Source of the DNA: Polaribacter atrinae
Lineage (GTDB): Bacteria; Bacteroidota; Bacteroidia; Flavobacteriales; Flavobacteriaceae
Length of the DNA: 64,000 nt
Direction: 5' to 3'
Assembly: GCF_038023995.1 (NCBI RefSeq)
Contig: NZ_CP150660.1
Span: 1,734,501-1,798,500 of the forward strand
Each line of letters starts with the position of its first letter. The stretch's first letter is position 1. The notes under the pieces are model-generated. The model did no database searches, had not been told where the DNA came from, and saw nothing but the letters and a program-made list of their open reading frames with translations. Below are positions 11,844 to 62,257 of the stretch, piece by piece. The position numbers and the translations under genes were made by a program.

Positions 11844-11917
11844 TGACCGCGAAGGGATTCGAACCCCCAACCCTCAGAGCCGAAATCTGATATTCTATCC
11901 AGTTGAACTACGCAGCC
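11844..11917 (-). tRNA. tRNA-Arg (anticodon UCG)
   Basis: A 74-nt cloverleaf reads 5'-GGCTGCG on the minus strand and closes with CGCGGTC plus discriminator A; acceptor pairing includes two wobbles. The anticodon stem TCAGA/TCTGA encloses a seven-base loop with anticodon TCG, reading CGA-type Arg codons, followed by G37. The T-arm loop TTCGAAT is canonical. CCA is not encoded. It lies 14 nt downstream of the yqeY stop on the same strand and just before the terminator, so the two are probably co-transcribed. Confidence 0.95.
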
Positions 11918-37710: not shown

Positions 37711-37800
37711 TACTTAAAATTTTGGAGCGTAAAAATAGTCGAAGTTTTTAAATAAATAGAAAATAAATGAATGAGATTTTCTAAAAGCTTGAAAGAATTT

Positions 37801-37872
37801 TAGCCCTGATTGAAATGGCATCCTTTTTTCTTTTTCGGAAAAAAGATATAATGGAAAGCAGGAAATAGCTTC
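37801..37872. repeat. Dispersed structured repeat, copy B (uninterrupted)
   Basis: TAGCCCTGATTGAAATGGCA...GGAAATAGCTTC is the reverse-complement counterpart of 736-900, without the nested palindrome. Internal symmetry (CTTTTTCGGAAAAAAG) suggests a hairpin. It lies just past the rnhB stop codon. Confidence 0.75.
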
Positions 37873-50525: not shown

Positions 50526-51608
50526 TTATCCGTTGATAATTTTTTCTTGGTGAACGATAGATTCTTGGTGAATTGCCTTAAACATTTTTAAAACAAATTC
50601 TTCACTTAAACCTTTGCTACTACCTTCCATAACCATGTTTCCTAAAATCTCGTTCCAACGACGTGATTGTAAAACAGCTACGTTTTGATCTTTCTTTAAT
50701 TGACCAATTTTATCGGCAACTTGCATTCTTTTACCTAATAAATCAATTAATTGATCATCTACCACATTAATCTGTGCTCTTAAGTTTTCTAAAGGCTCTC
50801 TGTAACTAACTGCAGTTTCAGTTTCTTTTTTAACTTTTAAGTCTACCATTATTTGCTTTAAAGCATCTGGTGTTACTTGTTGTGCAGCATCTGACCAAGC
50901 GTTTTCAGGGTCATAATGAGTTTCTATCATTAAACCATCAAAGTTTAAATCTAAAGCAGTTTGACAAACATCAAAAACCATATCTCTCTTTCCTGTAATA
51001 TGAGATGGATCGTTGATTAATGGTAAATCTGGAAATTTATTTTGAAACTCAATAGCTAATTGCCATTCTGGTGTATTTCTATATTTAGATTTTTCATACG
51101 TTGAAAATCCTCTGTGAATTGCTCCTAAATTTTTAATTCCTGCTGTATATAATCTTTCGATACCACCTAACCATAAAGCTAAATCTGGATTTACTGGATT
51201 TTTAACCAATACAATTTTATCTGTACCTGCCAAAGCATCTGCAATTTCTTGCATGATAAAAGGTGATACTGTAGAACGTGCACCAATCCACAATAAATCT
51301 ACATCGTGCTCTAAAGCTAACTTTACATGTGCTGCATTTGCAACCTCTGTACAGGTTTTCATACCTGTCTCTTCTTTTACTTTCTTTAACCAGTGTAAAC
51401 CAATTTCTCCAACACCTTCAAACATTCCTGGTCTTGTTCTTGGTTTCCATATACCTGCTCTAAAATAGCTTACATCAGAATCTTTTAGTTCGTGTGCAAT
51501 CTTTAAAACCTGTTCTTCGGTTTCTGCACTACAAGGCCCTGCTATTACTAGTGGATGATTTAATTTCATATCGTCCAACCATGTTCTTAATTCTTTAGTA
51601 TTCTCCAT
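50526..51608 (-). CDS. DAHP synthase / chorismate mutase fusion
   Basis: The 360-residue bifunctional enzyme makes 3-deoxy-D-arabino-heptulosonate 7-phosphate (first shikimate step) and converts chorismate to prephenate. Residues 1-~265 form a type Iβ-like DAHP synthase (PLVIAGPCSAETEEQ, GIWKPRTRPGMFEG, LLWIGARSTVSPF, DPSHITGKR). Residues ~268-355 form an AroQ-type mutase (LRAQINVVDDQLIDLLGKRMQVADKIGQLK). Last gene of the pheA operon, so entry into the pathway is controlled together with the Phe/Tyr branch. Confidence 0.95.
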   Translation of the reverse strand: MENTKELRTWLDDMKLNHPLVIAGPCSAETEEQVLKIAHELKDSDVSYFRAGIWKPRTRPGMFEGVGEIGLHWLKKVKEETGMKTCTEVANAAHVKLALEHDVDLLWIGARSTVSPFIMQEIADALAGTDKIVLVKNPVNPDLALWLGGIERLYTAGIKNLGAIHRGFSTYEKSKYRNTPEWQLAIEFQNKFPDLPLINDPSHITGKRDMVFDVCQTALDLNFDGLMIETHYDPENAWSDAAQQVTPDALKQIMVDLKVKKETETAVSYREPLENLRAQINVVDDQLIDLLGKRMQVADKIGQLKKDQNVAVLQSRRWNEILGNMVMEGSSKGLSEEFVLKMFKAIHQESIVHQEKIING

Positions 51609-51629
51609 TTTTCTACTTGTTGTGGCCTA

Positions 51630-52481
51630 TTATTTTATGCCGTTTAAAATTTGTTTTATGTGATTTGTATTCTCCATTTCGTTAAAAATTTCAGAGAAAT
51701 TATCTTTTTGCATCAACTCTTTAAACTGTTGTAAATTATTGATGTATTCTTCTAACGTTTCTATTACGTTTTCTTTGTTTTGTTTAAATATTGGTGTCCA
51801 CATTGCTGGCGAACTTTTTGCCAAGCGAACTGTGGATGCAAAACCAGAACCTGCCATATCAAAAATATCGCGTTCATTTTTTGCTTTATCAATGACCGTT
51901 TTTCCTAACATAAATGAACTTATGTGAGATAAGTGCGAAACATACGCAATATGCTTGTCATGAGAAACCGGATCCATGTAACGAATACGCATTCCAATAT
52001 CCATAAAAAGCTTTAATGCTTTTTCTTGAAGCTTAAAAGTTGTCTTCTCTACTTCGCAAATAATATTGGTTTTTCCAACGTATAAGCCGGATATAGCTGC
52101 TGTTGGCCCAGAATTTTCTGTTCCTGCAATTGGATGACATGCTAAAAAATTTCTTCTTTTTGGATGATGTTCAACAACTTTACAAATTGCTTCTTTTGTA
52201 GAACCTGCATCGATAACCAAACCATCTTCAGAAATTTTATCTAAAATTGTTGGTAATAATTTTACCGTAGCATCTACCGGAATTGAGACAATTACCAAGT
52301 CTGCATTTTCAATATCGTCTAAAGTTGCCTTCTTATCAATTAGATTTAATTCTAACGCCTTATTTAAGGTTTCGTCCTTTCTACTAATTCCGTGAATTAC
52401 AACATCTGGATTGTTTTTTTTAATATCGATAGCAAAACTACCGCCTATTAAACCAATACCAATCATGTATATATTTTTCAT
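51630..52481 (-). CDS. tyrA: Prephenate dehydrogenase
   Basis: TyrA oxidatively decarboxylates prephenate to 4-hydroxyphenylpyruvate for tyrosine synthesis. The 283-residue protein has the Rossmann motif IGIGLIGGSFA, ACHPIAGTENSGP (the HPxxG active-site region) and VSHLSHISSFML (conserved His). It lacks an ACT domain. Genes on either side are in the same operon; the upstream gap of 128 bp holds repeats. Confidence 0.95.
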   Translation of the reverse strand: MKNIYMIGIGLIGGSFAIDIKKNNPDVVIHGISRKDETLNKALELNLIDKKATLDDIENADLVIVSIPVDATVKLLPTILDKISEDGLVIDAGSTKEAICKVVEHHPKRRNFLACHPIAGTENSGPTAAISGLYVGKTNIICEVEKTTFKLQEKALKLFMDIGMRIRYMDPVSHDKHIAYVSHLSHISSFMLGKTVIDKAKNERDIFDMAGSGFASTVRLAKSSPAMWTPIFKQNKENVIETLEEYINNLQQFKELMQKDNFSEIFNEMENTNHIKQILNGIK

Positions 52482-52496
52482 TTTATTTTCTCTTTA

Positions 52497-52606
52497 AGTG
52501 AGATTCCTCTTCGTTCCTCATTCGGAATGACACTCTTTAATTTTTAATTAGATAAAGTCTCTTTTTAGTAACCAAACTAACTGCCAACTGCTACTGAAAA
52601 ACTGCC
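52497..52606. repeat. Intra-operon repeats between the aminotransferase gene and tyrA
   Basis: The gap contains GAGATTCCTCTTCG...ATTCGGAATGACA (a half-palindromic repeat; GGAATGACA recurs at 38531) and a tract of ACTGCCAACTGCTACTG like that between nqrD and nqrE. No promoter element is evident. Confidence 0.55.
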
Positions 52607-52609
52607 AAC

Positions 52610-53758
52610 TTATTTATCAAACCTACTAATTGCTTCTTTAATAATATCTGTTGTTACACATAACGAAAAACGGATATATCCCTCTCCTTGAGAACCAAAA
52701 ATGGTTCCTGGTGTAATAAAAATATCATAATCGTATAAAACTGAATCTGTAACTTCTTCAGATTTTTTTCCTGCTAGTATTTTTGCCCAAACAAATAATC
52801 CTGTGGAGTTTTTATCATAAACAGCCTCTAATTTGTCTGCCAATTGCCAAATTAAATTTCTACGTTCTTCGTATATTTTATTTTGTGCTAAAAACCAATC
52901 GTCTGATAATTGTAATGCTTCTATGGCTCCTTTTTGAATTCCGTAAAACATACCAGAATCCATATTAGATTTTACTTTTAAGATCTCGTTGATGTAAGAT
53001 TCTTTTCCGATTACCATTCCAACTCTCCAACCTGCCATATTAAAGGTCTTACTTAAAGAATTTAGTTCTAAAGCAATGTCTTTTGCACCTTCTACTTGTA
53101 AAATACTAATAGGATTATCGTTTAAAATAAAACTATACGGATTGTCGTTGATAATTAAAATATGATGCTTTTTACCAAAAGCAACTAATTTTTCAAATGT
53201 TTCTAAGGTTGCGTTTGTACCTGTTGGCATGTGCGGATAATTTACCCACATAATTTTTACATCTGTTAAATCTTGTGCTTCTAACTCGTCAAAATTTGGT
53301 TGCCAATTGTTAGCATCACTTAAATTATAAAAAAGAGGTTCTGCGCCTACCAATTTCGTTACAGAAGTATAGGTTGGATACCCAGGATTCGGAATTAACA
53401 CTTTATCGCCTTCGTTTAAAAAAGCCATAGAAATATGCATAATTCCTTCTTTACTTCCCATTAAAGGCAATACTTCATTTTCTGGATTTGAATCTACAGA
53501 AAACTTGTTTTTATAAAAAGTAGCAATTGCATTTCTTAATTCTGGTAATCCTTGATAAGATTGATACTTGTGTGCGCTCGCATCTCCTAAACTACTCTGA
53601 ATTGCTTCTAAAACAGTAGTTGGTGGTTGCAAATCTGGAGACCCAATTCCCATATTAATAATTGGTTTTCCTGCTGCTACTAAACCTCTAACTTCTCTTA
53701 ATTTTTTAGAGAAATAGTATTCTTGAACTGTATCTAATCTTTTGGCTGGTTGTATCAT
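52610..53758 (-). CDS. PLP-dependent aminotransferase class I/II (aromatic pathway)
   Basis: A 382-residue fold-type I aminotransferase with NPGYPTYTSVTKLVGAEP, ICNDNPY-like IINDNPYSFI, the PLP-Lys in ELNSLSKTFNMAGWRVG and an Arg near the C-terminus (YIRFSLC). Its place between pheA and tyrA suggests that it aminates phenylpyruvate, hydroxyphenylpyruvate or prephenate; sequence alone does not settle which. It resembles LL-diaminopimelate/aspartate aminotransferases. Confidence 0.9.
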   Translation of the reverse strand: MIQPAKRLDTVQEYYFSKKLREVRGLVAAGKPIINMGIGSPDLQPPTTVLEAIQSSLGDASAHKYQSYQGLPELRNAIATFYKNKFSVDSNPENEVLPLMGSKEGIMHISMAFLNEGDKVLIPNPGYPTYTSVTKLVGAEPLFYNLSDANNWQPNFDELEAQDLTDVKIMWVNYPHMPTGTNATLETFEKLVAFGKKHHILIINDNPYSFILNDNPISILQVEGAKDIALELNSLSKTFNMAGWRVGMVIGKESYINEILKVKSNMDSGMFYGIQKGAIEALQLSDDWFLAQNKIYEERRNLIWQLADKLEAVYDKNSTGLFVWAKILAGKKSEEVTDSVLYDYDIFITPGTIFGSQGEGYIRFSLCVTTDIIKEAISRFDK

Positions 53759-53796
53759 TTTATTTTGTTTTAATTCTGAAACATGTTCAGAACTGG

Positions 53797-54621
53797 CTAA
53801 AGCCTGCCGTTTTTATAAACTCCTAAAATTTTAAATTCTTCTGCCATTATTTCTATAATAGCTTGTGCTTTTTCGTAATCTTTATATGCTTCAAAAGTTA
53901 CATCCACAAAAAAGGAATATTTCCAAGGTGTTTCTATAACTGGTAAAGATTGTATTTTAGTTAAGTTCATTTTGCAATCACTCATTACATTTAAGATGGC
54001 TGCTAAACTTCCTCTTTTATGACTTAATTGAAATTTTAACGAAGCTTTATTTACTTCTTCATCAATTGCTGGCTTTTCTGTTTGTACAATTACAAAACGT
54101 GTAGAGTTGTCTTTTATGGTTTGAAGCTCATCTTCTATCACCTCTAAATCAAAAATTTCTGCTGCAATTCTTGGTGCAATTGCTGCAATACCTACTAAGT
54201 TTTCTTTAGATATTCTTTTAGCAACTTCTGCCGTATCTACATCTTCTACTAATTTAATATGAGGATACTTTTTAAAGAATTCTTTACATTGTAACAATGC
54301 CATTGGATGCGACCAAACTTCTTTTATATCTTCAATTCCCTGACCTTTTAAAGCCATTAAATGGTGATGAATATTCAAGTATTCTTCTCCTATAATATGA
54401 AGATTATTTTGATCTATTAAAGCATAATTAGGGATTATAGAACCCGCAATGGTGTTCTCTAAAGCCATAATACCCAAATCTGCGGTATTATCTAACAAAC
54501 TATCTACCAAGACATCAAAAGACATACATTCTTTTAAATCTATAGATGTTCCGTAAAAGTCTCTTGCAACTTTATGGTGGTTTGAGCCTTCGGCTCCCTG
54601 TATGGCTATAATTTTATTCAT
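53797..54621 (-). CDS. pheA: Prephenate dehydratase
   Basis: PheA converts prephenate to phenylpyruvate, the committed step to phenylalanine. The 274-residue form has a PDT domain (IAIQGAEGSNHHKVARDFYG, MALENTIAGSIIPNYALI, and the DNSTRFVIV Thr-Arg-Phe motif) and a C-terminal ACT domain (FQLSHKRGSLAAILNVMSDCKMNLTKIQSLP with the ESRP-like site replaced by QSLP). No chorismate mutase domain; that activity comes from the fusion protein at the operon's end. First gene of the operon, directly behind the leader attenuator. Confidence 0.95.
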   Translation of the reverse strand: MNKIIAIQGAEGSNHHKVARDFYGTSIDLKECMSFDVLVDSLLDNTADLGIMALENTIAGSIIPNYALIDQNNLHIIGEEYLNIHHHLMALKGQGIEDIKEVWSHPMALLQCKEFFKKYPHIKLVEDVDTAEVAKRISKENLVGIAAIAPRIAAEIFDLEVIEDELQTIKDNSTRFVIVQTEKPAIDEEVNKASLKFQLSHKRGSLAAILNVMSDCKMNLTKIQSLPVIETPWKYSFFVDVTFEAYKDYEKAQAIIEIMAEEFKILGVYKNGRL

Positions 54622-54638
54622 TTATTACAAATAATGTC

Positions 54639-54669
54639 AAAAAAAAAGCCTCGAATGAAATTCGAGACT
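54639..54669 (-). terminator. Attenuator terminator upstream of pheA
   Basis: On the minus strand AGTCTCGAA (54661-54669) pairs with TTCGAGGCT (54647-54655), followed by nine Ts. It lies 18 nt before the pheA start, i.e. inside the leader. Its 5' arm overlaps AAAGTCTC (54664-54671), which can instead pair with GAGACTTT (54705-54712) inside the leader-peptide frame. Confidence 0.88.
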
Positions 54670-54712
54670 TTATATGATATGAATGTTACTTAAAAACATG
54701 ATACAAAGTCTC
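54664..54712 (-). promoter_or_regulatory. Antiterminator hairpin of the pheA leader
   Basis: GAGACTTT (54705-54712) is the exact reverse complement of AAAGTCTC (54664-54671); pairing extends through TAT/ATA and ATG/CAT segments. It excludes the terminator stem. The 5' arm covers the G-D-F codons near the end of the leader peptide, so a ribosome reaching the stop codon would mask it. Confidence 0.8.
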
Positions 54713-54770
54713 CTCTCTTACTAAAAAAGTAAAAGTAAAAATAGAAACGAGTAAAATAGTTATTTAACAT
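54690..54770 (-). CDS. pheA operon leader peptide (Phe/Tyr-rich)
   Basis: A 26-codon frame from ATG (54768-54770) to TAA (54690-54692). It begins MLNNYFTRFYFYFYFF and contains 8 Phe and 4 Tyr, almost half of the peptide. It lies between a consensus promoter and the antiterminator/terminator pair, 69 nt upstream of the pheA ATG. This is the composition expected of a ribosome-stalling sensor of charged tRNA-Phe and tRNA-Tyr. Stalling within the aromatic run would leave the antiterminator arm free; rapid translation would allow termination. I know of this mechanism from proteobacterial amino-acid operons; I infer it here. Confidence 0.82.
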   Translation of the reverse strand: MLNNYFTRFYFYFYFFSKRGDFVSCF

Positions 54771-54794
54771 TTGTATTCTCTTTGTTTAATGGAA

Positions 54795-54825
54795 CAAATC
54801 TAAAGATTAAATTGAGACCAACAAA
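54795..54825 (-). promoter_or_regulatory. pheA operon promoter
   Basis: On the minus strand TTTG (54822-54825), exactly 19 nt, then TAGATTTG (54795-54802): a full match to the Bacteroidetes consensus. The expected transcript start is about 20 nt before the leader-peptide ATG. Confidence 0.82.
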
Positions 54826-55402: not shown

Positions 55403-58400
55403 ATGAAAAATAATACTTTTCAGGTATGTGAATTTGGGGAAATTCAATACCTATTAAAAAACAAAGCATTACACCTAACTTTACTTACATTATTAGCATT
55501 TTCGAACTTTTTTACTACAAATGCTCAGGACACTAATGATAATATTTCTTTTTATAAAAAATTCTCAGGTGCTAACCTAACTTATAAACAAATAGGGAAT
55601 AGCGAAATTAAATATAACACAGATCCAAATGACACTTCCTGTTCTAAAAACGACGGTGCAGCTACGAGCGCTAATTTAACATTACCTGAAGATGCTTTAA
55701 TACAAGCTGTTTACATACAATGGTTTGCACTTGTAAAGCATAATCGAAAAAATATAGAAGAATACGCACCTTTATCAAACTCAATACCCATCACTTATCC
55801 TGACGGAACAACAGAAACCATTTATAGCGATAAAAGCTACAGAGAAAGTATTACATCTAACTCTACAACCCTTCGCCCAATATACGAAGGCCAATTAGCC
55901 GATATTACCGAACAGGTAAAAGCTAAAGGAGCAGGAACCTATAAAGCAGATATAATATTAAATAACGACTATAATGCCTTATTAAAAGCATGTGCCTATT
56001 CTCAAGAAAATGTAAGAGCTTGGCAAATGTTGGTAGTATATAAATCTCCTACAGATGAGAGCGGTATAAATCAAGTATATGTATATGATGGTTTAAAAAA
56101 TTTTTTAAATCAAACTATAAAAGTGCCCGTAACTGACTATAAAGTATATAGTGGTGATACCGCTGGTAGTATTTCTGTTGGTTCATTACAAGGAGCAGCA
56201 AATCTAACGGGAGAATATATAAATGTTTCAGACAATTCGTTTTCTAATTTCCCTGCTGATTTTTCAAATTCTGGAGGTGTTTCTGACCCAGCACCTGGTG
56301 CAAACGGAACAAATAGAAGTGCTTATGGAGGTTGGGATATTGATGTTATGAACAGTAACTTCACACCAAACACTACTAACTTAAATTTATATGCAGGATC
56401 TAAAGGAGACCTTATATTAATAGACTTAATTGTTTTAAAAATACCAACTGGAGGTTTAGTTGTAACAAAAAAAACAACCACACCTAATGTTAATATTGGT
56501 GAAAACGGTACCTACGAAATAACTTTAACAAACGCGACTAATGTAGATTTAAAAGGTATAAAAGCCAAAGATATTCTACCCACAGGTTTCACCTATGTAT
56601 CTGGAGCCAATGTTGTGTTAAACAATGCTAGACAAACTGCTACAACAAAACCACAAGTAGGAGATACTACACTAAATTGGGGTACTTTTGATATTGATGG
56701 TAAAGGAAGTGTAACCATTATCTTTGATATAGCAGTCCCTGAAAACCAAAATTTAGGAACCTATCAAAACGGAGTAACAGCTACTGTTACAAGTCCAAAT
56801 GATACAGTTATTACAAATTATGATTCTGGAGACTCTACAAATGATGACATAACCGTAGGGAATCGTTGTGATGCAGCTTCTTCTGGTAACTTAGATACAG
56901 ACGGAGATGGTATTAGTGACATTTGTGATTTAGATGACGACAACGATGGTATATTAGATGTTGATGAAGATACTTGTGATATCTATGGAACTCCTTTACT
57001 TAATGAAGATTTTGGAATAGGAAACAATATAAGTACTCCTTTATCTGGAGGAGCGTCTACAAATTATAACTATTTAGAATTAAAAAATCCACGTAGCAAT
57101 AATACTAGTCGTGATTTACAGGATGACCTTTACGCAGTATTTAATAACATCCCTAACTCTGCAAGTTGGGCAGATGATAAATGGCAAACTGTAGGAGATC
57201 ACACAAGTGGTAACTTAACACCTACAAATGACAATATGTTAATGGTAAATGCAGGTAAAACACTTGATGTTATTTATCAGAAAACAATATCAGGTATTAC
57301 AGCCGGTGCACTTTTAGATGTATCTTTTTGGGTCTTAAATTTAGATGTTGATAATAACATTAATAATGATCCTCTTAGAGTTTTACCTAACATACAAATA
57401 GAACTTTGGCAAAACGGAGTACTTTTAGGTCCTCCTGTAAATACAGGAAACATTGTTAGAGAAGAAGCAGGCAGTAAAGATGCATGGAAATATTATGGTA
57501 CAAAAGCACCTTTAACTACATTAAATAGCAGCAATATAACCGTTGTTATTAGAAACAACACGAAAGCAGAATATGGAAACGATTTAGCTATTGATGATAT
57601 TCTAGTAAGACAATTATGTAATACAGATTCAGATGGAGATGGGATCCCTAATCGTTTAGATTTAGACTCAGATAACGATGGTATTCCAGATGTTATAGAA
57701 GCTGGTGGTAAAGACGACAACAATGATGGGATGGCAGATGGAGTAGTTGGTACAACACCATCAACTAACGGAATTCCACAAAGTGCAGGTACAGGTAATA
57801 CACCAACATCTACAGACGGAGATGGCATACCAGATTATCTAGACATAGATGCAGACAATGATGGTATACCAGATAATATAGAAGTACAAACTTCTGCTAA
57901 TTACATAAAACCTAGTGGAAAAGGAACCAATATGACAGATACCAATAAGAACGGTATAGATGATAATTATGAAATAAATGGTAACGTTTTTGTTCCAATT
58001 GATACCGACGGAGATGAAACACCAGATTACTTAGACACAGACTCAGACAATGATCAAATCTTAGATATTGAGGAAAATGGTCATCCTGCTAATGCAATTT
58101 TAGATGTAAATGCAGATGCTGATGGAGATGGTTTAAATGATCTTTTTGATAATAATTTAGACAATCCTAATACTGGTTTTACAGTAAATGACGGATTTTT
58201 AAGCCCAAACAATAAGGTAACCAACCTAACAAGCTTAGAAAACTCTTTTGGAGATGAAGACAATGATTTTAATCCAGGAAACGGAGACCTTAATTATAGA
58301 GATATCAAAGATAATGACAATGATGGTATTCCTGATGCTATTGACTTAGATGATGACAACGACGGTATTCCTGATCTTATTGAAAGCGGAAGTAATAACC

Positions 58401-61400
58401 CTGATGGAGATGAAGATGGAGACGGTATTCCAAACTACTTAGACACTACAGATAATGGTAATGCTGGCGACGGAAGTGCAACAAACTATACCGATTCTAA
58501 CAATGATGGTATTCCTGATGTATATGATACAGATAAAGACGGTGTTCCAAATCACTTCGATTTAGACTCAGACAACGACGGAATTCCAGATATTGTAGAA
58601 GCAGGTGGCGAAGATACAGATGGTAATGGTAAAGTAGATGATATCAAAACAGATGACACCCTTAAAAATGATGCTAATAAAAACGGTTTAGACGATCGTT
58701 ATGATGGCAGCGAAGGAGGAAATAACCTTACCAACACAGATACAGATGGAGATGGAATTCCAAACAGTCAAGATTTAGATTCAGACAACGACGGAATTAC
58801 AGATGTTATTGAAGCAGGCGGATCAGATACAAATAGAGACGGAATTGCAGATAATTTTGTAGATACAGACAATGACGGATTTAACGACCTTGTAGATGGA
58901 GATGTTGGTCAAGATGGTAATTCAGAAAACACTGCAAATGCACTAATTCTTACAGGTGATGACGCTAATAATGATGGAACACCAGACTCATATCCAAATG
59001 GAGACGCAGATGGTGATGGTAAATTAAATCACTTAGATATTGATGCGGATAATGATGGAATTCCAGATAATATTGAAGCACAACCTTCTATTGGATATAT
59101 AGCTCCTAGTAATCCTAACGGAGCAATGATTGATGTTAATAAAAATGGTGTAGATGATAATTATGAAGGAAGTGGTATTGGTTTTATTCCAGAAAACACA
59201 GACAGTGCCAATGATAATATTCCAGATTATTTAGACACCGATTCAGATAATGATGGGGTTCCTGACATTGCAGAAAACGGACATCCTGCTAATGCAATTC
59301 TAGATATTACCGCAGATACGGATGGAGATGGACTAAATGATCTTTTTGATGATAATAATGATCCAACAAACACTAGAATTACTGTAAATGATGGTTTAAA
59401 CCCTAATAACAAAGTAACAAATACAGCTACTTTAGAGGCTAGTTTTGGTGATATAGATAACGATTTTAACCCCGGTACTGGAGATCTAGATTATAGAGAC
59501 AAGCTAGAAGCTGCTAATGTTATGATTACGCAAGTATATCAGTTTGGTTCAGAAAGATGGATCGAAATTACAAACGTAGGTTCTGTAGATATACCTGCAG
59601 ATAATATAAAAATACATTTATATAAAAATACATCTCTTAATGATCTAACAAATATAGAACCAGATGCTTCAGATAAAGTTAACTCTGTACTACAAGTTGG
59701 TAAATCGGTATTATTTAAAAATAGCGCAAATTCTATTATTACAAATTTAGGAAATGCAGATATTATACAAAATAATGACTTAACAGAGTTTGATGGAGCA
59801 GATGATATTATTGTACTTTCATCTGCAGATGGACTTTATGCATGGGCAAAAAGGTATGACCTTGTTGCTAACATTGCCAACAAAACTTCTTTTGTTAGAA
59901 TAGACGAATCTTCTGCACCTAATAAAACGTACACAGAAGATGAATGGGTAGTGTTTGTAGACGATGCTATAAATTCATACCAATCTGGATACGGAACGGG
60001 AGACAACAGTACAAAAAGACATTCTCAAGATCCATTAATTTCAGAAATAAAAGATTCTAACACAGAAGCTAACACATTGTTAGGCTTACATAGAATTGAA
60101 GAAACCACTACAAATACGGATGATACTTGGGATAACGGTTATCCAGATAGATCTCGTTATGTTGTAATTGATAAAAATTACACACATACAGACACTAGAT
60201 TAAGTGCTCGAAAACTAAACGTTGATGCAAGTGCAAAATTAACAGTAACAGATCAATTATTAGTAGTTACAAATGATATTGAATTAAACGGAGAAATTCG
60301 TTTATCAGGTTCGTTAGCACAATTAATACAAACACATAACAATACAAGTGCAGTTACTGGTAATGGACAATTATTTGTAGATCAAAACTCAGAAGTACCA
60401 AGTAAATACCGTTATAACTATATGAGTTCTCCGGTTACTACTTTAAATAAGGCAACCTATTCTTTAGAAACTGTTCTTAGAGATGGTACTGATTTATACA
60501 ACCCTAAAACAATTAATTTTGTTTCTGGTTATGATGGTTCATATACAGGAACCAACATATCGTTAGCTGATTATTGGGTATATACCTATGCTCCTGCTAG
60601 CAACGGAAGAGCAAATTGGTCGCATAAATATAAAAACGGACTTATTGATAGAGGTGATGGTTATACTTTTAAAGGTCCTGGAAGAAACCAAAACTATACA
60701 TTTGTAGGGACACCAAATGATGGTGAGTTTACAACAAAAAATATAACTGCCGGTCAATCGTATTTAATAGGGAACCCTTTCCCTTCTGCTTTAAATGCAA
60801 GAAAATTCTTGGATGACAATAACGATTTAATATCAACACTTTATTTTTGGCAACATGTAGCAGAAACAGAAGCATCTGGAACTGCTGGCCATAACTTTGG
60901 AGGATATATTGGTGGTTATGCTGCTCAAAACGTAAGTATGGCAACAGCAGTAAAAACAGGTGAAGTAGGTCCTGTTGACTACACGTTAGAAGCTAAACAT
61001 GTGCCTGATGCAGATACAGATGGTTTTAAATTATCACTTCTAGATATTATAGGTACAGTCGTTTCTTTAAATGATAGAAATTTTATTAAATTTTCGAATA
61101 TACCTAGAGGAGTAGAAACTTTAAAAATAAATTACGCATCATCCTTTACTAAAACTTTTAACATAAAAATTAATAACGTAGATAAAGGAGAGTTTACTTT
61201 TCCTTCTACTGGTCTATTTTACAGTAATATAACATTTAAATTATGCATACCTGCTGGTAGTGATATTACTTTTACAGGAACCAACGATAATGGATTTTTG
61301 CGTATGAATAATTTAACATTTCAAGATGATGATGGGCTTATTTCTTGCGTAGCGAACTCTGGTGGTAGTGAGTATGCTAATTTATATAAAACGCCAGAGC

Positions 61401-62257
61401 CTTATATTGCAATTGGCCAAGGGTTCTTTGTTGAGGGGATTAGCACTGGAGAAATTAAATTTAATAATAGTCAAAGAGAATATAAAACAGAAGGAGATGG
61501 TAAATCTATATTCTTAAAAAGCGATCAGAAAACAGCTCTAAAAGCAGTTAACAACAACCTATCTATATTAAAATTAGGAATGAGCTACTCTAATGATGAA
61601 GGAAGCAATTTACACCGTCAAATAGGAATTTCTTTTAATCAGGCAAATTCTTTTGAATATGAAAAAGGGTATGACTCTGAAATGTATGATGTGAATACTA
61701 CAGATTTCTATTGGAAATTCCCGAACAATAACAGTAAATATGTAATTGCAGGAGTCCAAGAAATAACAAACGCACTAGAAGTACCTTTAGAACTTGTAGT
61801 AAATAAAAATAGTATTGTTCTTATTGGTATAGATGAAATAAATAACATCAACCAAAATGTATATATCAAAGACAAATTAACAGGTAAAACACAGAAAATA
61901 AATGATATTAATGCAGCATATCAATTAAAAGAAGGTACTTACACAGACAGATTTGTTTTGGCTTTTGAAGCAACAGAAGATACTGCGCTTAGTGTAGAAG
62001 AAGATCTACTTGCTAGACAAACCAATATTTATGCAGATAACAAAAACAACAAAATTGTAATTTCTAAAAATCAAGAAGTGTATATCAATAATGTTGAATT
62101 GTTTGATATTCTTGGTAAAAAAATAAGTCTTTGGACTATTAAAGAACAAAAAGAAACCTACCAATTAGAAATCAAAAAACAAATACCAACTGGTATTTAC
62201 ATTGTTAAAATGAACACAGATAAAGGAACAATAAATAAGAAAGTAGTAATTGAATAG
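55403..62257 (+). CDS. Giant T9SS-secreted multidomain protein 2
   Basis: A 2284-residue secreted protein. An N-region with FGEI (shared with giant 1) leads into a signal core ending near TTNA-Q (residue ~41). Next are a beta domain of ~290 residues of unknown type, a DUF11-type repeat (about 352-470, VVTKKTTTPNVNIGENGTYEI), a jelly-roll-like domain (~528-740), and a very long run of thrombospondin type 3 Ca2+ repeats (about 497-527 and 741-1366, D-x-D-x-D-G-x-x-D pattern). The C-terminal cassette (about 1367-2284) is homologous to giant 1 (ITQVYQFGSERWIEITNVG onwards) and ends in a type A sorting domain. A ~130-residue carbohydrate-binding-like insert lies near 1853-1990. Adhesin or polymer-binding roles are inferred; no enzyme domain is seen. 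Confidence 0.9.
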   Translation: MKNNTFQVCEFGEIQYLLKNKALHLTLLTLLAFSNFFTTNAQDTNDNISFYKKFSGANLTYKQIGNSEIKYNTDPNDTSCSKNDGAATSANLTLPEDALIQAVYIQWFALVKHNRKNIEEYAPLSNSIPITYPDGTTETIYSDKSYRESITSNSTTLRPIYEGQLADITEQVKAKGAGTYKADIILNNDYNALLKACAYSQENVRAWQMLVVYKSPTDESGINQVYVYDGLKNFLNQTIKVPVTDYKVYSGDTAGSISVGSLQGAANLTGEYINVSDNSFSNFPADFSNSGGVSDPAPGANGTNRSAYGGWDIDVMNSNFTPNTTNLNLYAGSKGDLILIDLIVLKIPTGGLVVTKKTTTPNVNIGENGTYEITLTNATNVDLKGIKAKDILPTGFTYVSGANVVLNNARQTATTKPQVGDTTLNWGTFDIDGKGSVTIIFDIAVPENQNLGTYQNGVTATVTSPNDTVITNYDSGDSTNDDITVGNRCDAASSGNLDTDGDGISDICDLDDDNDGILDVDEDTCDIYGTPLLNEDFGIGNNISTPLSGGASTNYNYLELKNPRSNNTSRDLQDDLYAVFNNIPNSASWADDKWQTVGDHTSGNLTPTNDNMLMVNAGKTLDVIYQKTISGITAGALLDVSFWVLNLDVDNNINNDPLRVLPNIQIELWQNGVLLGPPVNTGNIVREEAGSKDAWKYYGTKAPLTTLNSSNITVVIRNNTKAEYGNDLAIDDILVRQLCNTDSDGDGIPNRLDLDSDNDGIPDVIEAGGKDDNNDGMADGVVGTTPSTNGIPQSAGTGNTPTSTDGDGIPDYLDIDADNDGIPDNIEVQTSANYIKPSGKGTNMTDTNKNGIDDNYEINGNVFVPIDTDGDETPDYLDTDSDNDQILDIEENGHPANAILDVNADADGDGLNDLFDNNLDNPNTGFTVNDGFLSPNNKVTNLTSLENSFGDEDNDFNPGNGDLNYRDIKDNDNDGIPDAIDLDDDNDGIPDLIESGSNNPDGDEDGDGIPNYLDTTDNGNAGDGSATNYTDSNNDGIPDVYDTDKDGVPNHFDLDSDNDGIPDIVEAGGEDTDGNGKVDDIKTDDTLKNDANKNGLDDRYDGSEGGNNLTNTDTDGDGIPNSQDLDSDNDGITDVIEAGGSDTNRDGIADNFVDTDNDGFNDLVDGDVGQDGNSENTANALILTGDDANNDGTPDSYPNGDADGDGKLNHLDIDADNDGIPDNIEAQPSIGYIAPSNPNGAMIDVNKNGVDDNYEGSGIGFIPENTDSANDNIPDYLDTDSDNDGVPDIAENGHPANAILDITADTDGDGLNDLFDDNNDPTNTRITVNDGLNPNNKVTNTATLEASFGDIDNDFNPGTGDLDYRDKLEAANVMITQVYQFGSERWIEITNVGSVDIPADNIKIHLYKNTSLNDLTNIEPDASDKVNSVLQVGKSVLFKNSANSIITNLGNADIIQNNDLTEFDGADDIIVLSSADGLYAWAKRYDLVANIANKTSFVRIDESSAPNKTYTEDEWVVFVDDAINSYQSGYGTGDNSTKRHSQDPLISEIKDSNTEANTLLGLHRIEETTTNTDDTWDNGYPDRSRYVVIDKNYTHTDTRLSARKLNVDASAKLTVTDQLLVVTNDIELNGEIRLSGSLAQLIQTHNNTSAVTGNGQLFVDQNSEVPSKYRYNYMSSPVTTLNKATYSLETVLRDGTDLYNPKTINFVSGYDGSYTGTNISLADYWVYTYAPASNGRANWSHKYKNGLIDRGDGYTFKGPGRNQNYTFVGTPNDGEFTTKNITAGQSYLIGNPFPSALNARKFLDDNNDLISTLYFWQHVAETEASGTAGHNFGGYIGGYAAQNVSMATAVKTGEVGPVDYTLEAKHVPDADTDGFKLSLLDIIGTVVSLNDRNFIKFSNIPRGVETLKINYASSFTKTFNIKINNVDKGEFTFPSTGLFYSNITFKLCIPAGSDITFTGTNDNGFLRMNNLTFQDDDGLISCVANSGGSEYANLYKTPEPYIAIGQGFFVEGISTGEIKFNNSQREYKTEGDGKSIFLKSDQKTALKAVNNNLSILKLGMSYSNDEGSNLHRQIGISFNQANSFEYEKGYDSEMYDVNTTDFYWKFPNNNSKYVIAGVQEITNALEVPLELVVNKNSIVLIGIDEINNINQNVYIKDKLTGKTQKINDINAAYQLKEGTYTDRFVLAFEATEDTALSVEEDLLARQTNIYADNKNNKIVISKNQEVYINNVELFDILGKKISLWTIKEQKETYQLEIKKQIPTGIYIVKMNTDKGTINKKVVIE

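Follow-up and report, generated by a model that had tools for sequence, protein, structure and literature searches.

The window, by which we mean the whole 64,000-nt stretch of DNA that was analysed, comes from a genome of 4.01 Mb. Its minus strand carries an operon for aromatic amino acid synthesis at 50526-54621, which runs from pheA through an aminotransferase gene and tyrA to a gene for a fused DAHP synthase and chorismate mutase (Table 1). Among the 80 named loci used for comparison, the operon order was identical in all 74 that had at least 3600 nt of sequence past pheA; the remaining six were cut off early, and the portion present fits the same order.

The next long ORF upstream of the operon (55403-62257, plus strand) points the opposite way, which rules out that the terminator hairpin ahead of pheA belongs to an upstream gene. 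This ORF has 2284 codons, many D-rich repeats of the DTDGDGIP type and a sorting-like C-terminal end, and its product looks like a secreted surface protein of the type IX secretion pathway. The window also contains a tRNA gene at 11844-11917 (minus strand) and two matches to the Flavo-1 RNA motif (RF01705), at 37798-37869 on the plus strand and 739-903 on the minus strand, with 74.6 and 60.2 bits, respectively. For this motif, the relevant part of an earlier study states that a real functional clue was not found (PMC9723704).

Anatomy of the region ahead of pheA

A first-pass annotation of this DNA had proposed that a consensus promoter, a 26-codon leader with 12 aromatic codons clustered as FYFYFYFF, an antiterminator with its 5' arm inside the leader frame, and an overlapping terminator with nine T all lie ahead of pheA. 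Direct reading of the minus strand bore out the promoter and the leader. The promoter is laid out as TTTG-N19-TAGATTTG, followed by 24 nt before the leader ATG, and transcription is predicted to start at about 54790. The sigma-A box TAnnTTTG has been placed at -12 to -5 (PMC9723704). The leader, MLNNYFTRFYFYFYFFSKRGDFVSCF, has 26 codons, of which 12 specify Phe or Tyr and none Trp.

The terminator and its nine T were likewise confirmed, by direct reading together with folding. The hairpin (54671..54645) has 12 pairs and a 3-nt loop, and its last three T open a nine-T run that ends at 54639. Its fold of -12.8 kcal/mol (z -5.9) was equalled in stability by 0 of 200 shuffles. In the antiterminator, GAGACUUUGUAU at 54712-54701 pairs with AUAUAAAGUCUC at 54675-54664; this stretch has a folding energy of -14.2 kcal/mol (z -3.5), with one of 200 shuffles equally stable, and its 5' arm does fall within the leader ORF (54770..54690), as had been claimed. 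Folding also revealed an additional pairing that was absent from the first-pass annotation, a 1:2 hairpin in which the aromatic codons at 54748-54734 pair with 54722-54708. This hairpin has an energy of -11.4 kcal/mol (z -2.2), and 5 of 200 shuffles equalled it in stability. In the fold models, the 1:2, 2:3 and 3:4 pairings exclude one another.

Table 1. Coordinates of the predicted leader elements and of the operon genes, all within the window.
Feature	Position	Strand	Basis
-33 element TTTG, sigma-A-type promoter	54822..54825	-	Sequence
-7 element TAGATTTG (TAnnTTTG)	54795..54802	-	Sequence
Leader peptide ORF, MLNNYFTRFYFYFYFFSKRGDFVSCF plus stop codon	54690..54770	-	Sequence; aromatic leader in 111/111 close loci
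Regulatory codons FYFYFYFF, codons 9-16	54723..54746	-	Aromatic at each codon in 45 to 48 of 48 26-codon relatives
Segment 1 of 1:2 protector hairpin	54734..54748	-	Fold; synonymous-codon null
Segment 2, 1:2 hairpin form	54708..54722	-	Fold
Segment 2, 2:3 antiterminator form, GAGACTTTGTAT	54701..54712	-	Fold; cross-genus pairing conservation
Segment 3, antiterminator form, ATATAAAGTCTC	54664..54675	-	Fold
3:4 intrinsic terminator hairpin, T run to 54639	54645..54671	-	Sequence; fold
pheA, prephenate dehydratase	53797..54621	-	Pfam PDT 1.6e-52; NCBIfam prephenate dehydratase models 1e-51, under curated cut-offs
Class I aminotransferase	52610..53758	-	Best NCBIfam aminotransferase model 3.7e-122, under cut-offs
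tyrA, prephenate dehydrogenase	51630..52481	-	NCBIfam NF006307, 383 bits vs cut-off 295
DAHP synthase/chorismate mutase fusion	50526..51608	-	Both domains matched in NCBIfam, under cut-offs

Spread and conservation of the leader

A leader was scored wherever an ATG-started ORF of 10-60 codons had F, Y or W at no fewer than 7 of 10 consecutive residues. Such an ORF was found in none of 120 other upstream regions from the 80 named loci and in none of 18 other regions within the window. These control regions, together with codon changes that preserve the aromatic residues (see below), rule out a chance T-rich ORF. An aromatic leader with a terminator was present at 111 of 111 close pheA loci, a set in which the window is counted twice and which reduces to 99 distinct upstream stretches once 12 duplicates are dropped. 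The family sample consisted of one genome per genus, with a pheA match in 84 of 100 genomes (our own included). From the 83 genomes of other genera 79 loci were read, G059, G072, G092 and G105 being left out with the gene near a contig end, and leader and terminator were both found in 75 of the 79. Loci L219 and L229 fell short: their leaders reach 6 of 10 aromatic residues, and a terminator-like hairpin is present by eye; in L192 and L222 an aromatic leader was looked for and none was found. The first-pass annotation had suggested comparing relatives for the leader ORF and the competing stems, and both turned out to be conserved, the leader with its terminator in the close (111/111) and family (75/79) sets and the competing stems as described below.

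Searches of the order and phylum yielded loci L141-L185, which include more members of the same genus and family; leader and terminator occurred in 29 of 44, L168 being excluded for having no upstream DNA. L247 was left out, having no match. In the class sample, the query used matched pheA in 31 of 109 genomes, and 8 of the 19 new class loci (L321-L339) had a leader with at least 7 of 10 aromatic residues, judged by the leader criterion alone. Class loci at 5 or 6 of 10 were not counted because the controls reach 6. Outside the class, an aromatic leader was seen at 2 of 16 loci (L178 and L182); in the other 14 loci labelled as outside the class, scans that began at the first in-frame ATG gave at most 4 of 10 aromatic residues. 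The counts cover the pheA matches whose locus was retrieved. Based on the family, class and outside-class counts, the element occurs commonly within the family, extends into the class where pheA can be found, and appears infrequent beyond it, in a small sample. Seven 0.6-Mb genomes of one family (L156, L158-L163) have kept pheA, and an aromatic leader at the set threshold was not found in them; one of these, L160, has a TTG-started stretch near pheA. In two class relatives (L171 and L172) an ORF directly precedes pheA, without an intergenic leader, and the end of this ORF resembles EPSP synthase (aroA).

The exact box TAnnTTTG was found no more than 60 nt ahead of the leader ATG in 102 of 111 close loci. 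A minority of the family loci, 17 of 75, had it, as compared to a shuffle mean of 3.9 and a maximum of 11. A relaxed pattern, TAnnTT[ACT]G, occurred in 72 of 75 family loci (shuffle mean 8.4, maximum 17); this pattern was picked post hoc, from inspecting the family loci missed by the exact box. Since a promoter box precedes the leader ATG in close and family loci alike, it is unlikely that transcription starts downstream of the leader.

Conservation of the individual residues was counted on 48 of the 99 distinct close stretches, picked solely by their 26-codon length. Each of codons 9-16 was aromatic in 45 to 48 of the 48, and codon 22 was Phe in all of them, with codons 2-5 and 7 variable and seldom or never aromatic. 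Codon 6 was aromatic in 47 of 48 relatives, with Phe in 25, Trp in 21 and Tyr in 1, and was Cys in the remaining one; at codon 16 Phe and Tyr interchange (Tyr 25, Phe 22). The codons that keep this aromatic identity differ from relative to relative: TTT, TGG and TAT at codon 6, and TTT and TAC at codon 16. In a further alignment of 87 relatives by pattern, the equivalent of codon 6 was Trp in 48, Phe in 29 and Tyr in 7 (84/87 aromatic). The pattern demands an aromatic run, so its run columns are partly conserved by construction, and we took from this alignment only codon -3, a position that the pattern does not touch. The mixed Phe and Tyr run pointed out in the first-pass annotation is itself conserved, F and Y both being present in 180 of 180 distinct leader peptides that qualified.

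Tryptophan is enriched as well. It occurs 51 times in the 75 family leaders, compared to a shuffled mean of 15.9 and a maximum of 27, and 50 of 76 leaders of the family set have at least one Trp. With Phe, Trp or Tyr at codon 6 in 47 of the 48 relatives of equal leader length, some relatives may sense Trp too. As we read the geometry, stalling at codon 6 would place the ribosome over the outer part of segment 1, which is the part that competes with the antiterminator.

Conserved pairing and geometry of the RNA

RNA tests were run on 104 representatives: the window itself, 75 genera of the family and 28 loci from the order, class or phylum. L181 was dropped from the duplex test on account of its 216-nt linker. 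The 2:3 duplex had a mean of -11.9 kcal/mol, compared to -6.0 kcal/mol in dinucleotide-shuffled linkers (n = 104). It was better than at least 95% of shuffles in 94 of 104 representatives, with the other 10 below that mark. At least six perfect Watson-Crick pairs were found in 67 of 104, compared to an average of 6.8 and at most 13 in shuffles. The same representatives carry 44 distinct segment-3 cores, a few of which are simple A/T strings. Hence, given the excess in duplex strength and pairing across 44 distinct cores, the 2:3 pairing has been retained despite changes of its letters. Swapping segment 3 between loci was a weak test, since the stems of different genera resemble one another. 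The own segment outperformed the average swap at 96 of the 104 loci, but surpassed 95% or more of the swaps at no more than 39. Within the close set, the antiterminator arm hardly varies, with the identical perfect 8-mer GAGACTTT in 69 of 99 loci; under strict pairing, the best match was only 5 nt long in 11 of 99.

A ribosome reaches past its A site by about the 10 nt that separate the aromatic run from segment 2. From the last codon of the run to the start of segment 2 the median distance was 10 nt (middle half 9-11 nt), and this gap fell within 7-14 nt in 94% of cases, compared to 15% for shuffled linkers. By this measure, the antiterminator starts where the footprint of a ribosome would require it to start. 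The 1:2 pairing was compared with synonymous shuffles in which the peptide was held fixed. It was better than the shuffled mean in 155 of 198 distinct stretches; ranked against their own shuffles, 55 stretches fell into the best tenth and 2 into the worst. To judge from this ranking, synonymous codon choice favours 1:2 pairing. Four sequence features of an attenuator are thus present, namely an aromatic leader ORF, an intrinsic terminator, an antiterminator that excludes it and lies at footprint distance, and a 1:2 hairpin.

Probable attenuation, its alternatives and related systems

We interpret the element as a transcription attenuator that works through the ribosome and responds to charged tRNA-Phe and tRNA-Tyr, with a probability of roughly 0.93; as such, it very probably tells this marine bacterium when to make aromatic amino acids. 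Transcription would begin near 54790, and a ribosome would enter the 26-codon leader. With Phe or Tyr in short supply, the ribosome would stall in FYFYFYFF, covering segment 1 and leaving segment 2 free. Segments 2 and 3 could then pair, the terminator would be blocked, and the genes from pheA through the aminotransferase and tyrA to the DAHP synthase/chorismate mutase would be transcribed. With Phe and Tyr plentiful, the ribosome would proceed over segment 2, and the 3:4 terminator would halt transcription before pheA. If no ribosome started, segments 1 and 2 would pair and the terminator would prevail too. The anatomy, its conservation, the geometry and the conserved alternative pairing described above agree at each step with classical attenuation, and from them we infer the stalling, the efficiency of termination and the regulatory response.

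A nascent aromatic peptide might alternatively stall the ribosome from within the exit tunnel upon binding of a ligand, and not via uncharged tRNA. In favour of such an arrest peptide, the run FYFYFYF is very similar across Polaribacter and Tenacibaculum relatives. Across genera, however, the length and the residues of the peptides vary a great deal, and it is chiefly the aromatic content that is preserved, whereas arrest peptides require specific residues. The same genome also has Trp-, His- and Ile/Val-rich leader candidates before trpE, hisG and ilvD, which further argue against ligand-dependent arrest, and we consider it very unlikely.

Slightly less probable still is that the T-rich tract goes untranslated and that its terminator is controlled by an RNA-binding protein, by a riboswitch ligand or not at all. 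In its favour, no G-rich, Shine-Dalgarno-like stretch was found ahead of the leader ATG in the family set, but flavobacteria usually do without a Shine-Dalgarno sequence (PMC9723704), and its absence is normal for this group. Translation is favoured by the aromatic identity kept through codon changes at codons 6 and 16, by the fixed distance from the run to segment 2 and by the absence of leaders from the control regions; at the element, every Rfam family scored under its cut-off. A translated leader that acts on translation of pheA by re-initiation or start masking, as the short distances to the pheA ATG could suggest (68 nt from the leader stop codon and 23 nt from the terminator stem), is equally improbable given the canonical nine-T terminator hairpin and the position of a terminator between run and pheA in every leader-positive locus (111 close, 75 family).

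Attenuation ahead of pheA has a well-known counterpart in the proteobacterial Phe leader, which likewise combines an aromatic leader, an antiterminator and a terminator before pheA; the pheL of E. coli is Phe-rich, without a Tyr run. The window element would work alike but differs in sequence and structure. Its covariance-model score of 18.3 bits (E 1.2) falls short of the gathering cut-off of 55, which places it outside the Rfam family Phe_leader (RF01859, pheL-pheA). The classical trp, his and ilv leaders share the mechanism. In Bacteroidetes, Bacteroid-trp (RF01692) is a listed cis-regulatory motif (PMC2864571). Both this motif and the classical trp, his and ilv leaders belong to other operons and other amino acids than the pheA element. 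Upstream ORFs containing F and Y ahead of shikimate-pathway genes are similar to the window leader, but the survey that reported them covered five other bacterial genomes (PMC6429828). In Bacteroides thetaiotaomicron, long 5' UTRs contain short ORFs reminiscent of leader peptides (PMC7366714).

The first-pass annotation knew of no description of this element for flavobacteria, which does not wholly hold. Work on Flavobacterium psychrophilum reported strong clues that leader peptides attenuate amino-acid operons, and it lists structured 5' elements of pheA and hisG as present in other Flavobacteriaceae genera (PMC9723704, 2021). Since that study reports both a pheA 5' element and clues to leader peptides, the idea of attenuation is not new to flavobacteria. 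Its pheA element concerns the same family and the same gene, and we liken it to ours by its description; section 19, which deals with it, gives no peptide, no 1:2, 2:3 and 3:4 anatomy, and no spread beyond the family. In the literature found on attenuators of Bacteroidetes and flavobacteria, this was the sole flavobacterial match on point, and Lopatovskaya et al. 2010 (cited in PMC4833913) may cover Bacteroidetes. We regard the window element as a well-supported instance of a textbook type of switch, and the use of Trp in relatives as the point most worth testing.

Further leader candidates were found in the same genome before trpE (L256; MKNNTINTGWWNSLI, with WW), hisG (L280; MTFIQNHHHHFYNCSQAI, with HHHH) and ilvD (L293; MKKQLLNIISIINVNVIITNW, rich in Ile and Val), and a terminator-like hairpin lies after each of them. 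By the thresholds applied, candidate leaders were present at 11 of 12 strong TrpE loci (L250-L261) and at 0 of 12 weaker ones (L262-L273), at 11 of 13 hisG loci, and at 6 of 11 ilvD loci, to which the ilvD candidate of the own genome was added by a looser look. A Thr/Ile leader before homoserine-dehydrogenase genes was found neither at the threshold used (23 loci) nor by a looser look at the two homoserine-dehydrogenase loci of the own genome.

Classical attenuation requires a prompt ribosome start and a ribosome that stays close to RNA polymerase. Because the pheA attenuator is widespread in the family and this genome also has candidate leaders for Trp, His and Ile/Val, transcription and translation would be closely coupled in flavobacteria; the element occurs in most of the family genera read, within a group reported to lack Shine-Dalgarno sequences. 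Such leaders would be simple native reporters for testing this coupling, and for annotation they would offer a rule by which leader genes still unlabelled in the class could be recognised. Through its mixed Phe and Tyr codons, joined in relatives by Trp codons, a single leader would gauge several end products at once. Tentatively, and with somewhat less than even confidence, we extend this to a family-wide picture in which one switch pools Phe, Tyr and often Trp, controls the branch-point operon with DAHP synthase/chorismate mutase, reaches deep into the class, and operates in bacteria in which ribosomes initiate without a Shine-Dalgarno sequence.
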